Of a stretch of DNA of 47,007 nt, positions 456 through 46,032 are shown piece after piece. The notes under the pieces were generated by a model. That model was given only the letters and a program-made list of their open reading frames with translations, searched no databases and had not been told where the DNA came from. How positions within the stretch are numbered: position 1 is the stretch's first letter; each line of letters opens with the position of its first letter. Origin of the DNA: a virus; the IMG/VR virus record IMGVR_UViG_3300022745_000049, positions 1 through 47,007 of that record; one strand, given 5' to 3'. Position numbers and translations under genes: made by a program.

Positions 456-1909
456 TATCAGCCGGACCCGGTTGTGGTAAAACCCACACTCTAGTCGATA
501 GTTACCTTTACTATCAAACACCAACTCCACTCATGTGGAGACAACGATTCCCATGTACTGACGAACAGTTTGCAATTTACGAATGGATTCGTAAGACAAT
601 GCCCAAAGGTATTAAAACAGTACCTTACATTGCCTACAACAACACAATCGTCAAAGAACTGGAAAAGAAAATCCACGAAGATTGTGAAGTTCACACTCAT
701 CACGGTTGGGGTTACTCGGTCATTCGAAAGAAGTTTGGACACGTTCCCATGAATCCAAAACGATCAGAAATTCTGGTTGCTAAGATTACTGGACAAGACA
801 TGTCTCAACTCAAAAACAAATTCGAGTGGTTGACAACAATCAAATTCATCGAGAAACTCAAAGACGAGTTGCTCGAAGTCAAAATGGAAAACTTCTACTT
901 ACTTCAGTCAAAATATTCTGACCTTGCTCCGTTTCGGATTCACCAAAACATCTGTCAACAAGCAAGTCAGCTTATCACAGCAATGAAACAAGTAGATCGA
1001 TCCATTGGAATCGAATTCATCGATCAAATTTGGTTAGCACTTTTCATTCTCGACAAACCTTGGTTCGAATTCGGATTTGTTGACGAATGTCAAGACCAAT
1101 CACCTGCTCGATTACTTCTTGCACAAAAACTGTGTAAGCACTTAATCTGTGCAGGTGACGAAAACCAAGCAATTAATGCTTGGACAGGTGCAGATCCTTA
1201 CGCAATCGACAAGATTCGAGCAAGTTCCGATCTTGAACTTCCACTCAAACTCTCTTTCCGGCTTCCACCAAACCGAGTCGAAAGAGCAAACCAAATTAAA
1301 CCTTTAGCCAACCTGAAAGGACAATCCACCACCCCAGGAATCGAAGCGTCGGTAGACGGTGAGAATCTACAAGAATGGATCAAAGACACAGTACAATACA
1401 ATCCACTGATTGTTTGTCGGTACAATGCTCCACTTGTTCGACTAGGAATTCATTGCATCAAACTCAACATTCCTGCAAAAGTTCTTGGTTCTTCTCTTTA
1501 CGATGCACTTGTTCGAACTCTCGAAAATCGTCAAGCAAGAGACATTCCAGATGCTCTCCACAAACTTGACTTATTCGAAAAACGATGTCTTGAAGTTGGA
1601 GACGATATGGCAAAAGAAGGAACAATCGATAAAATAAATGCTTGTCGATTCATCCTCGGACGTTGTACAGTTCTCTCAGACTTCAAAGTGATTGCCAAAC
1701 GACTGACCAATCCACCAAAATCAGAAACTAAGATTACTGGATTGACAGTCCACCGAGCAAAAGGTCTCGAAGCTAATGTTGTTGGAGTTTTAAATCCTCC
1801 AATTGCTTCTTCAAAAGCAAAAACTTCAACACAAAAACTTCAAGAAGAAAATTGTATGTTCGTAGGTGAAACTCGAACTCGTCGTGACCACTACTATCTT
1901 TCGTTCTAA
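440..1909 (+). CDS. Superfamily 1 (UvrD/Rep-like) DNA helicase
   Basis: An ATP-driven DNA translocase/helicase of about 489 aa, probably used in phage replication or recombination. Visible SF1 motifs are Walker A AGPGCGKT (residues 8-15), motif II VDECQDQSP, motif III CAGDENQAINAW, motif IV-like LSFRLPPNR, motif V-like TVHRAKGLEA and motif VI-like VGETRTRRDHYY at the very C-terminus. It is shorter than bacterial UvrD (about 720 aa), so accessory subdomains are reduced. I chose the ATG at 440 because it puts Walker A directly at the N-terminus, as in relatives, and follows GAAGAAGAA; an in-frame TTG at 413 is possible but would overlap the upstream gene more. DNA ligase follows after 9 bases. 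Confidence 0.92.
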   Translation: MPNLLISAGPGCGKTHTLVDSYLYYQTPTPLMWRQRFPCTDEQFAIYEWIRKTMPKGIKTVPYIAYNNTIVKELEKKIHEDCEVHTHHGWGYSVIRKKFGHVPMNPKRSEILVAKITGQDMSQLKNKFEWLTTIKFIEKLKDELLEVKMENFYLLQSKYSDLAPFRIHQNICQQASQLITAMKQVDRSIGIEFIDQIWLALFILDKPWFEFGFVDECQDQSPARLLLAQKLCKHLICAGDENQAINAWTGADPYAIDKIRASSDLELPLKLSFRLPPNRVERANQIKPLANLKGQSTTPGIEASVDGENLQEWIKDTVQYNPLIVCRYNAPLVRLGIHCIKLNIPAKVLGSSLYDALVRTLENRQARDIPDALHKLDLFEKRCLEVGDDMAKEGTIDKINACRFILGRCTVLSDFKVIAKRLTNPPKSETKITGLTVHRAKGLEANVVGVLNPPIASSKAKTSTQKLQEENCMFVGETRTRRDHYYLSF

Positions 1910-8866: not shown

Positions 8867-9370
8867 ATGATTCAGAAAACCATTCTTGCCATCGTGGCAT
8901 TCTTTTTGTTGATTCCACAGGTTCAAGCACAATCTTGTTCAGGAACACGATCAACTCCAGTTCGCAACGTACTTCGTGGTGTGGCCAGAGTAGCTGTTGC
9001 TCCTGCAAAGTTTGTCGCAACCCACAAGCCTGTAAGATCAACTCTTGCCAAGCTCGTCCGACCAGCTTCTACTTGTAGTGGAACTTCGGCAGCAGCAACA
9101 ACTTGCCCTTGTGGTTGTCACTCCTCCCCAGCAAGTGGAGCCGCAGTTGCAGATACAAAAGGTGCATATCATTATGCAGCATACCTTGATTCGACAGGAA
9201 GTTTTGCTCACGACCAAAATTACGTCGGAGTAGAAAATCTTTATCGATCACAAGGTGTAGCAACTCCGGAACAAGCTGTTCAATATTGGCAAACAAGTGC
9301 CGGACATCGACAAAATCTTCCGTACATCACAACAATCAAGTGTGTAAACGGTACTTGCGTCGGTCGTTAA
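8867..9370 (+). CDS. Secreted CAP-domain (SCP/PR-1-like) protein
   Basis: A 167-aa exported protein. A signal peptide (MIQKTILAIVAFFLLIPQV, cleavage probably after AQA near residue 22) is followed by a basic linker, a Cys-rich stretch (CPCGC) and a CAP core: SFAHDQNYVGVENLYRSQG, TPEQAVQYW, then TSAGHRQNL. The pattern His, Glu, W-x3-S-x-GHR matches the CAP family, although the core is short and lacks the first alpha helices. CAP proteins are extracellular or envelope-associated and of varied function. A phage-encoded exported copy is uncommon and may modify the host surface. It forms its own unit between a terminator and the tRNA-like gene. Confidence 0.75.
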   Translation: MIQKTILAIVAFFLLIPQVQAQSCSGTRSTPVRNVLRGVARVAVAPAKFVATHKPVRSTLAKLVRPASTCSGTSAAATTCPCGCHSSPASGAAVADTKGAYHYAAYLDSTGSFAHDQNYVGVENLYRSQGVATPEQAVQYWQTSAGHRQNLPYITTIKCVNGTCVGR

Positions 9371-9376
9371 CTCTTT

Positions 9377-9419
9377 AGTCTTAAACTAGGATTCCATACC
9401 GCTGGATTTGTTTAAGACT
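9377..9419 (+). ncRNA. Ten-base-pair hairpin ahead of the tRNA-like gene
   Basis: AGTCTTAAAC (9377-9386) pairs perfectly with GTTTAAGACT (9410-9419). The 23-base loop holds a possible inner TCC/GGA pairing. No U tract follows, so a plain terminator is unlikely. It lies 22 bases upstream of the tRNA-like sequence and could be part of the same transcript. Confidence 0.45.
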
Positions 9420-9441
9420 CTCAACAAAATTATATAGTGGT

Positions 9442-9501
9442 AAAGCCGTTAGTTTAATATTGGTAAAATCTATGATGTGGGTTCGAATCCCTCACGGCTT
9501 T
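9442..9501 (+). tRNA. tRNA-like gene lacking the anticodon arm
   Basis: Eight-base arms AAAGCCGT and ACGGCTTT form an acceptor-like stem. Inside are a D-arm (GTTT, loop with TTGGTA, AAAT) and a canonical T-arm (GTGGG, TTCGAAT, CCCTC, with one mismatch). Between the D-arm and the T-arm only a few bases remain (CTATGAT), so no anticodon stem-loop can form: the unit is 60 bases long instead of about 72. The retained D-arm and T-arm resemble bacterial tRNA-Gly. No CCA is encoded. It could be a decayed tRNA, a processed tRNA mimic, or an attachment-site relic; its flanks and stem are intact. Confidence 0.6.
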
Positions 9502-9523: not shown

Positions 9524-9835
9524 ATGAACAAATTTTCGTTACGTTTTTCTTCTCGTAACTCGCTGCATGTGTTTGCAGTTCATTGTTTTACTCGAAATAA
9601 CTTGAAACTTCGACGTTGTTGGGGATCAGGTTCAAACCCAAATGTATATGAATTGTCTATGGTACAATTTATCAATCGAACAGCAACTTTACAAGTTGTG
9701 TTAAACTACAAAATAAAAGAAGTTGTAATTCTTTACTCAAACAACCGTCAACGTAAGAATTTTCTTGAACTCCAACAAGTATTGACATCAATCCATGGAA
9801 AAGAAACCTCTAGTCTCCGTAAAGAAAACTTGTAA
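9524..9835 (+). CDS. Hypothetical protein, 103 aa
   Basis: I do not recognise this protein. It is basic, with beta-like stretches (TLQVVLNYKIKEVVILY) and a CW near residue 32. AAAGGAGAATACC gives one of the best ribosome binding sites of the window at 8 bases from the ATG. It directly follows the tRNA-like gene, and its end overlaps the next gene by 41 bases. Confidence 0.65.
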   Translation: MNKFSLRFSSRNSLHVFAVHCFTRNNLKLRRCWGSGSNPNVYELSMVQFINRTATLQVVLNYKIKEVVILYSNNRQRKNFLELQQVLTSIHGKETSSLRKENL

Positions 9836-43565: not shown

Positions 43566-43649
43566 ACATAGGTATATACGTGGACACCTGGTAGTCGAGG
43601 ATCGAACCAAACTGGACAAAGTTGTACGATTTGGAAATTCTGACAAGCT

Positions 43650-43775
43650 GTCATTTTTTGACAGTTCGTCAATTTTTGACACCGAGTCAAATTTTGACAA
43701 GCCGTCATTTTCTGACAACGAGTCATTTTCTGACAGTTCGTCAAATTTTTACTTTCCGTCAATTTTGAAATTTCA
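43650..43775 (+). repeat. Tandem array of seven 18-bp dyad units
   Basis: Consecutive 18-base units start at 43650, 43668, 43686, 43704, 43722, 43740 and 43758. The first five follow GTCANTTTYTGACANNNN, each containing the small palindrome TGTCA/TGACA-like; the last two are decayed. The regular phase places identical sites about 1.7 helical turns apart. It ends eight bases before a sigma-54-like promoter, so it may bind an activator or repressor cooperatively; an iteron function is the alternative. Confidence 0.85.
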
Positions 43776-44129: not shown

Positions 44130-44593
44130 TTACACGAAACAACGTCGAGCGAATCACGCGAATTGGAGCAAAAGCAGCAAAACGGAAGTTTGATTACATT
44201 GAAGTTTTGCAAGTATGCTTGCAAACATATGACAATCCACGTTCTGCTTTTGCTCAGTCGATCTATTTGTCGCATGTCGAATTCTTGCGAAACAAAATTC
44301 GATCCTATGATCGATGGATTCTATGGAGCGTAAATAAGATGGTGCAAGTGTACGAAACATCAGCCCAATTGCGAAAAATGAGGTATGGTAACAACGGAAC
44401 GATAGACCTTCACCCCAGAATGCAATGGCTCAACGATGGTTCGATTCCGTCGGCATTCTCTGCCATAACAGTTATGGCGATTATTTCCGGCTCTTGTGTT
44501 GACATATCACAAGAGTCTAACCCTTTCTCAATGGAGAATTTACTATGTCAAAGTATGCAAACCCAGTGGCATCCAACTATGCTCTTAACGTAG
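44126..44593 (+). CDS. Hypothetical protein, 155 aa
   Basis: Unrecognised; basic helical N-terminus (NNVERITRIGAKAAKRKFDY) and EFLRNKIRSYDRWILWSVNK in the centre. The C-terminal 50 residues overlap operator-like palindromes and the start of the next gene, so the real protein may be structured only up to about residue 110. Confidence 0.55.
   Translation: MITRNNVERITRIGAKAAKRKFDYIEVLQVCLQTYDNPRSAFAQSIYLSHVEFLRNKIRSYDRWILWSVNKMVQVYETSAQLRKMRYGNNGTIDLHPRMQWLNDGSIPSAFSAITVMAIISGSCVDISQESNPFSMENLLCQSMQTQWHPTMLLT
44462..44515 (+). promoter_or_regulatory. Two operator-like palindromes before the ParB-fold-like gene
   Basis: GCCATAAC-A-GTTATGGC (44462-44478) is a perfect 8-1-8 palindrome. CTCTTGTG-N9-CACAAGAG (44491-44515) is a perfect 8-base inverted repeat whose spacer contains TTGACAT. 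Both lie 30-83 bases upstream of the ATG at 44545 and could serve autoregulation by its product. Confidence 0.5.
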
Positions 44594-46032
44594 CCAATGT
44601 TGATGAAATTTTGGCGATTTTCGACAGTGTTAAGGCTAACACTGTGGAGCAGGTTCGAAGCGACGAATTGACAGCCGAACAAGTTGCAATTCTCAACGCT
44701 GGAATTGTCGGCAATACATTTGCGGCTCTTGTTCCCGCAACAGCTGACAATATTCGAACACTTCTCGGTTTGCGAGAAGCAAAATCGGATGAACTCCCCG
44801 ATTGGACGATTGGAGAGAAAGGTTACATCTTCGAACGTAACCGCAAGAATCGACCCAAAACGCTTTCCCGCATCATGCCCGCAACGAAACTCGGAACGTA
44901 TTCGAACCAGATGGTTCGGGGCTTGTGGGGCAGTTTGGCGGGTGTTCTGCTCTACACTGATGAAGCAAGCATTGCGAGTGCTCAACATACGTTATGCGGC
45001 GGATTGGTCAAAACTCACCTTGACCCCGAAAACAAGTCGAATTTGCATTTCCTTATCGTTGTGGGACTACCGCCACAGTTTGCGGATTGGTCTGATAAGG
45101 GACGTTCTAGAAACGTGGTGCAAGATTCCTTCCGAGATGAAAGATTGTTTGAAGAGTCTGTTTTTGTTGGTGTTCAACCAGTTCGAACCGCACCAAAAGA
45201 GCGAACAAAAGAGCGTACTGGATTGTTGGCATTGTCCAAGAAAATTGCAGAGTGTTGCTTGAACCGCTTCGAAGGGAAGGATATTCCCGAAACAGGTGGT
45301 AAACGTACATGGGGTGAAGAGTCGGCATTCTATGCCCGGTTTGCTCCTCGAAATTGGGTCGCATCCATTGAAGTACCCTCGAAGGATAACCCCGAAACTT
45401 CCGAGATACAATCGATTGACAAGAGCGACCCTGCAATTGAGTCACTGGCTCTCACTCTGTGGGAAGCTGGTAAGAGTAGTTCGGGAAAAATGGAGCGAGA
45501 CTGGCTAACCTATTTCTCCCCCAGTGTGGTCGCCTCTGCTCTGGTACTTGCAAGCAATGACGAAACACGAATATCCGCATTGTCGCAATGCGAGAAACTT
45601 CCTGATGAAACCGTCGAGGAATTCGTAACACGTTCGCAAGAATTGAGGCTGTCGGCTCTTGCTCCAGATTCGTCACTTGTCATCGATTGGGAATTGGTTT
45701 CGACCGTTGTGGGAATGCTCACAAATTCGACTGACAAGGCTGGACCATTGCAAGCCGTGTTTGCTGATCTATCGGAAAGAATGAAGAAGGACAAGCAGGC
45801 GAGCGACAAGAGTAAGTACCTTTATTCTCCGTTGTCTGTTGGTTCGATGTCGGCTTGTGTTCAACTCATTAAGAACATTCGTTCCGGCGACCTCACTTCA
45901 TCAGTTTGGACGAAGTACAAGGAAACCGGAAAGGGCGATGACAAAGAAGTATCGCCGGTCTATCGATGTTTCGGCGGAGTTGACGTAGGGTATATCCAAA
46001 CTACTCGCAAGGGTAAAAAATCTGACGAATAG
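44545..46032 (+). CDS. ParB-fold-like (DGQHR-type) DNA-binding protein candidate, 495 aa
   Basis: Residues about 120-200 show the order of ParB/Srx-like phage proteins: NQMVRGLWGSLAGVLLYTDE, then ASIASAQHTLCGGLVKT where DGQHRL is usual, then FLIVVGLPPQFADWSDKGRS followed by RNVVQDSFRDE. Relatives bind DNA or nucleotides; here several consensus residues differ, so the call rests on layout. The C-terminal 280 residues are helical and unrecognised. ATGGAGAATTTACT gives a good ribosome binding site. A terminator follows. It may be a partition-like or regulatory protein, or a nuclease-related factor. Confidence 0.5.
   Translation: MSKYANPVASNYALNVANVDEILAIFDSVKANTVEQVRSDELTAEQVAILNAGIVGNTFAALVPATADNIRTLLGLREAKSDELPDWTIGEKGYIFERNRKNRPKTLSRIMPATKLGTYSNQMVRGLWGSLAGVLLYTDEASIASAQHTLCGGLVKTHLDPENKSNLHFLIVVGLPPQFADWSDKGRSRNVVQDSFRDERLFEESVFVGVQPVRTAPKERTKERTGLLALSKKIAECCLNRFEGKDIPETGGKRTWGEESAFYARFAPRNWVASIEVPSKDNPETSEIQSIDKSDPAIESLALTLWEAGKSSSGKMERDWLTYFSPSVVASALVLASNDETRISALSQCEKLPDETVEEFVTRSQELRLSALAPDSSLVIDWELVSTVVGMLTNSTDKAGPLQAVFADLSERMKKDKQASDKSKYLYSPLSVGSMSACVQLIKNIRSGDLTSSVWTKYKETGKGDDKEVSPVYRCFGGVDVGYIQTTRKGKKSDE

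Follow-up and report, generated by a model that had tools for sequence, protein, structure and literature searches.

An anticodon-armless tRNA at a phage gene border, apparently one of a recurrent and undescribed class of phage tRNAs that cannot decode

A virus fragment of 47,007 nt (IMG/VR record IMGVR_UViG_3300022745_000049, positions 1 to 47,007; hereafter the window) carries, between two genes, a tRNA reduced to its acceptor, D and T arms. The element has a tRNA fold, its acceptor, T arm and elbow are under selection, its anticodon domain is free to vary, it lies at a gene border and elements of its kind recur in unrelated phages. Together they seem to form a recurring class of phage tRNAs, dead for decoding, that has gone undescribed. 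By form, the armless elements are a variant of tRNA-like elements; by distribution, they appear to be a new class. A search of the open-licence literature found no description of an anticodon-armless tRNA class in phages. We give a probability of about 0.5 to the reading that the element, much as t-elements do in plant mitochondria, marks a site between genes for processing by host RNase P and RNase Z.

The element occupies positions 9443..9501 of the plus strand and comprises 58 nt followed by a discriminator T (9501, plus strand) with no encoded CCA. The acceptor strands AAGCCGT (9443..9449) and ACGGCTT (9494..9500), both read directly on the plus strand, pair at 7/7 positions, or 8/8 when A9442-T9501 is counted, which agrees with the 8-bp acceptor-like stem noted in an earlier sequence-only reading. 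Positions 8-9 of the element are TA. The D arm, GTTT-AATATTGGTA-AAAT (9452..9469, plus strand), is supported by both the sequence and the Rfam alignment; its stem forms 4/4 pairs including one G-U, and its loop contains GG and TTGGTA. A 7-nt linker, CTATGAT (9470..9476, plus strand), stands for base 26, the anticodon arm and the variable loop. The T arm, GTGGG-TTCGAAT-CCCTC (9477..9493, plus strand), completes the structure. The same reading had reported a D arm with TTGGTA, a TTCGAAT T-loop and about seven bases for the anticodon arm, all of which can be read in the sequence. The T stem forms 4/5 pairs with one T-T mismatch. The tertiary pair 15-48 is A-U, position 48 being the final T of the linker. 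As the anticodon is missing, decoding by the element is excluded.

Against the tRNA family RF00005 of Rfam the element scores 36.9 bits (gathering score 29), spanning the whole model length with the anticodon positions deleted. It thus passes the Rfam cut-off and also has the 7-bp acceptor, D-arm GG and T-arm TTCRA loop of a canonical tRNA, and carries a 7-nt linker instead of an anticodon arm with a 7-nt loop. ARAGORN called no tRNA at the element, no second tRNA match was obtained in the 47-kb virus fragment, and no Rfam family other than tRNA matched across the window. A scanner for acceptor, D arm and T arm returned one match in the window and none in 18.8 Mb (both strands) of Markov sequence of the window's composition. 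An armless-tRNA model, R1, scores the element at 50.9 bits, the element itself being one of the 47 training rows. Plain minimum free energy folding of the 59-mer gives z = -0.9, which is not diagnostic. Support for the element comes from its match to the tRNA consensus and from comparison with other phages.

The truncated form, which the earlier reading had proposed to look for in related phages, turned up in unrelated phages. IMG/VR was scanned with patterns comprising the consensus D arm and T arm separated by a short spacer, with the acceptor left unconstrained; successive scans matched 75, then at least 119, then 26 contigs and yielded at least 109 non-redundant anticodon-armless tRNAs. 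In the first scan, which allowed spacers of 4-21 nt, none was shorter than 10 and the commonest was 11, equivalent to a linker of 8. Among the matches listed from the wider scans with at least 6/7 acceptor pairs, linkers of 5, 6, 7, 8, 9 and 10 nt occurred 1, 1, 3, 51, 31 and 12 times, so that 82 of 99 had an 8- or 9-nt linker. Because the scan pattern leaves the acceptor unconstrained, pairing of its strands is an independent test. Among the matches listed, 62 of the 109 non-redundant elements showed 7/7 acceptor pairing, as against 1.1% with swapped partners, and each of the seven pairs exceeded all 1000 shuffles (109 elements among the matches listed). Rows with broken acceptors are also present among the listed pattern matches, and some armless elements sit in tRNA arrays.

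The elbow gives a further signal. The Levitt pair 15-48 is present in 72 of 79 elements among the matches listed (shuffle mean 43.8; reached in 0 of 10,000); linker positions other than the last, a base that the pattern leaves unconstrained, do not pair with position 15. In an alignment of 47 sequences the pair is found in 46/46, as 30 G-C and 16 A-U; these sequences were chosen for acceptor and T-stem pairing, which biases the counts for those two stems. Within three syntenic families the armless form persists over divergence: L241, L334 and L345 share a neighbour at ~40% identity and have differing, paired acceptors, and both L296/L367 and L223/L258 show compensatory acceptor changes within an armless pair. 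The scans were extended to 356 bacterial genomes over two phyla, where the armless pattern occurred in 0/296 genomes from the phylum of a Chitinophaga genome and in 0/60 from that of a Sphingomonas genome; normal matches numbered ~7 per genome in 41 genomes of the former set.

Relatives of the window were gathered via ThyX, the polymerase and Sak4, the core group having polymerases 42-53% identical to the window's, and the border compared was the stretch that separates the polymerase from the homologue of ORF 8036. Most relatives have a tRNA-like element with a paired acceptor at that border, mostly right after the secreted-protein gene. In two of them (L074, L075) a GUCA tetraloop caps a 5-bp anticodon stem, the stems AGGGC/GTCCT and AGGAA/TTCCT being compensatory. 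Others have a GUAA tetraloop (L410), a triloop in the anticodon domain with a degenerate T arm (L073), element middles of 55-80 nt (L008/L009, L086, L076) or a 7-nt loop with an atypical D arm (L007). On sequence comparison, then, acceptor pairing is kept in the window's clade and the anticodon domain is variable. A full tRNA in relatives, which the sequence-only reading had named as one finding that would overturn it, is not what the clade shows at this spot; the anticodon domains there are aberrant, and the deletion is therefore not private to one isolate. The same stretch of L408 and L410 additionally contains an element that resembles a tRNA-Arg(UCU) of near-normal form. Two related lineages, L077/L078 and L081, have no element at the border, and the element is therefore dispensable. 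A query with 8-11 kb of the window matched no phage at the nucleotide level, and the exact T-arm/acceptor string had no match in IMG/VR.

Further tRNA-like elements occur at other places. A 98-nt element with an enlarged anticodon region lies just 3' of a thyX relative in L024 (6531-6628) and L049 (8881-8978). L206 and L212 (each 1501-1579, minus strand), located elsewhere in the L008 and L011 records, have anticodon-region loops of ~15 and ~12 nt, and several tRNA-like elements per genome are possible.

A similar range of forms is seen in crAss-like phages. They are an independent case, reached through cr60_1 (NC_055891, Buchavirus), one of the pattern-scan matches. In cr60_1 an armless element ends ~20 nt before the DNA polymerase start, and armless elements are likewise found ~20 nt upstream of the DNA polymerase in cr109_1, cr113_1 and cr52_1. 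The T stem GAGGG/CCCTC is replaced by AAGGG/CCCTT in cr113_1, a compensatory change. The acceptor of cr52_1, CCCCTG/CAGGGG, is unrelated yet paired, and the element scores 47.3 bits with a model built without it. The same place is occupied by a normal tRNA-Arg in cr115_1 and by an element with a 12-nt loop in cr4_1. To judge from these sequences, the crAss-like range of anticodon forms resembles that of the window's clade. Two further elements lie at this same place upstream of the DNA polymerase. That of cr56_1 (L492 1384-1471) is tRNA-like with a ~60-nt insert in the anticodon region, and that of cr53_1 (NC_055889; L495 1416-1487) is annotated as tRNA-His and reads as a stem GCTAC/GTAGT with a TAT loop, a three-base closure with which it may not decode histidine.

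In the window, the element sits between two co-directional ORFs. The upstream gene (8867..9370, plus strand) encodes a small secreted-type protein with a homologue in the same place in L077 (49% identity); resembling proteins, judged by eye, occur in L008, L073, L076 and L081, and searches of Pfam, PHROG and plasmids gave no match. The downstream gene (9524..9835, plus strand) starts with an ATG 24 nt past the element, with an AAAGGAG ribosome-binding site in the gap; it has no Pfam or PHROG match and is seemingly not conserved across the clade. A hairpin (9377..9418, plus strand) with a stem of approximately AGTCTTAAAC/GTTTAAGACT lies between the upstream stop codon and the element; region 9370-9420 folds with z = -4.0 and the whole 80 nt upstream with z = -1.2. 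Elsewhere, the window encodes a helicase, ligase, Sak4-like annealing protein, ThyX, DNA polymerase, primase, terminase, portal and tape measure. Towards its end lie an 18-nt unit repeated in tandem ~6 times (43635-43750), each unit containing the spaced palindrome TGAC...GTCA, possibly an iteron-like protein-binding array, and a 495-aa ORF without a PHROG match (44545-46032), near the record end.

Proximity to a downstream start codon extends beyond the window. Counting ORFs of at least 50 codons, an ATG-ORF begins 18-32 nt 3' of 19/79 armless elements (among the matches listed) and of 18/228 normal tRNAs on the same contigs (Fisher p = 4e-4); random positions have a start codon at this distance in 7% of cases. 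About three quarters of the listed armless elements have no start codon at 18-32 nt, so other roles are possible. In the L306 family of a T7-like phage, the element lies between the major capsid and tail tubular genes: 46 nt, containing a strong hairpin, separate it from the capsid stop codon upstream, and the tail tubular ATG follows 25 nt downstream; in L218 the element is 23 nt ahead of the DNA polymerase. Hairpins precede the element in the window, L306, L218 and L316. An upstream hairpin was considered as a feature of the class and rejected: upstream regions of armless elements and normal tRNAs did not differ significantly (p = 0.09), and the hairpin is therefore a local note only. The capsid/tail border of Pelagiphage HTVC019P has a hairpin and no tRNA-like element. 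In L316 (6905-6989, non-coding) a hairpin is directly followed by an armless tRNA with the stem GCGACTG/CAGTCGC, and in Glutamicibacter phage BIM BV-113 (L488 1434-1510), 5' of the terminase, a hairpin is followed by GCGCTAC/GTAGCGC with a different interior; the non-coding region is common to both, and compensatory changes preserve the stem.

RNase P and RNase Z read the acceptor, T arm and elbow of their substrates and do not need the anticodon arm. As the retained parts are those that these enzymes read, and as the elements stand at gene borders, mRNA processing is the favoured reading. Binding to either enzyme, suggested in the earlier reading, would fit on both counts. The decoding-dead tRNA, reduced to its elbow between two co-directional phage genes, would be transcribed inside a polycistronic mRNA and take the shape of the upper part of a tRNA L. 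Cuts by two host enzymes, RNase P at the 5' end of the element and RNase Z at the 3' end, would part the upstream message from the downstream one and give the latter a new start ~20-30 nt before its start codon. As neither enzyme reads more than the acceptor, T arm and elbow, the anticodon arm would be dispensable, free to be lost, to shrink to a tetraloop or to grow, and its loss would also keep the excised RNA out of decoding; that the phage benefits from these cuts is what we infer. With about three quarters of elements outside the 18-32 nt spacing and some in tRNA arrays, one role may not fit all. The two lineages that lack the element, the mismatch in the window's T stem and an upstream hairpin that is not specific to armless elements count against the processing reading as well.

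A tentative alternative is that the armless tRNAs form a class of non-coding RNA found throughout phages, excised and acting in trans: a free ~60-nt mimic that, having no anticodon, takes no part in decoding and escapes anticodon nucleases, and that titrates a host protein binding the elbow or acceptor. Its targets may lie in tRNA processing, modification, EF-Tu or tRNA-targeting defence, with RNase P, the CCA enzyme, EF-Tu, tRNA-modifying enzymes and a tRNA-targeting defence nuclease as candidates. Conservation of the elbow, 15-48 pair included, despite the impossibility of decoding would fit such a mimic, as would the copies within tRNA arrays; the ties to gene borders and the fixed start-codon distance in a subset would be unexpected for a trans factor. 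It also counts against the mimic that neither acceptor sequence nor discriminator is conserved between armless elements, so that no single aminoacylation identity is discernible. A glycyl identity was rejected, the acceptors being unrelated, and the glycyl-tRNA synthetase put forward as a target in the earlier reading is not supported, since acceptor sequences are wholly different between elements. Slightly more doubtful is a structure that stays uncut in cis, either stabilising the 3' end of the upstream message or forming a leader that sets downstream translation. The close start-codon spacing and the hairpins upstream of four elements speak for it, but any hairpin would serve that purpose, the downstream gene seems not to be conserved in the clade, and conservation of a full tRNA elbow down to the Levitt pair points to a tRNA-specific partner.

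Drift of true tRNA genes after a deletion of the anticodon arm is unlikely. Near-normal tRNAs at the same border (the tRNA-Arg of cr115_1) or nearby (L408, L410) suggest that the ancestor was probably a tRNA, and the broken acceptors among the pattern matches would be expected of decay. However, the armless state is maintained with compensatory changes in cr60_1/cr113_1/cr52_1 and in the three syntenic families, which argues against drifting pseudogenes; linker length is sharply 8-9 nt among the matches listed; and none of the 296 Chitinophaga-phylum genomes has the armless form despite their normal matches. Covariation of the acceptor, T stem and 15-48 pair in armless relatives is selection on pairing of a kind that a tRNA pseudogene lacks, and it supports the sequence-only reading on two points, that the truncation is not random decay and that the element is an anticodon-less tRNA mimic. 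The suggestion in that reading of an attachment-site relic, left by an element that had integrated by way of a host tRNA gene, did not hold up and is very improbable. Phages often integrate at tRNA genes, but attP usually keeps the stretch of one side, and here both acceptor strands are maintained by compensation across the class; the scanned proteins of the window, a 47-kb fragment, include no integrase; and the T7-like and crAss-like positions are gene borders in replication or virion operons.

A recurrent elbow-only class in phages means that the tRNA shape has been reused for a non-decoding job. If the processing reading is true, host tRNA maturation enzymes would serve phages as general mRNA scissors, as they do at mitochondrial t-elements, and some phage 'tRNA genes' at gene borders, such as the annotated tRNA-His of cr53_1, may be punctuation rather than translation helpers.

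To our knowledge, natural tRNAs that lose an arm lose the D or T arm and not the anticodon arm. RNase P and RNase Z also process the tRNA-like end of MALAT1 mascRNA and its kin, which does not decode; these RNAs are eukaryotic and keep a small anticodon-like arm. The M3 and C4 RNAs are not known to have a tRNA body of D arm, T arm and acceptor. RNase P cuts non-tRNA substrates too, phage M3 RNA and antisense C4 RNA among them (PMC11143913). Whole arms are missing from the minimal mitochondrial tRNAs of nematodes and mites (PMC2797822): there the D or T arm is gone and the anticodon arm stays, the reverse of the phage element. The tRNA punctuation of animal mitochondria likewise lies between genes and is excised from polycistronic RNA, but those tRNAs decode, which the phage elements cannot. 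Closest are the t-elements, described in PMC8003010 (citing Forner 2007 and Hanic-Joyce 1990) as tRNA-like structures marking intergenic cleavage sites in plant mitochondria. These t-elements share with the window's element a non-decoding tRNA-like structure at a gene border, and they guide the cuts of processing enzymes. Compared with t-elements, the phage element is a near-complete upper half of a tRNA, with acceptor, D arm, T arm and 15-48 pair, from which precisely the anticodon arm has gone, and its cleavage is a prediction.
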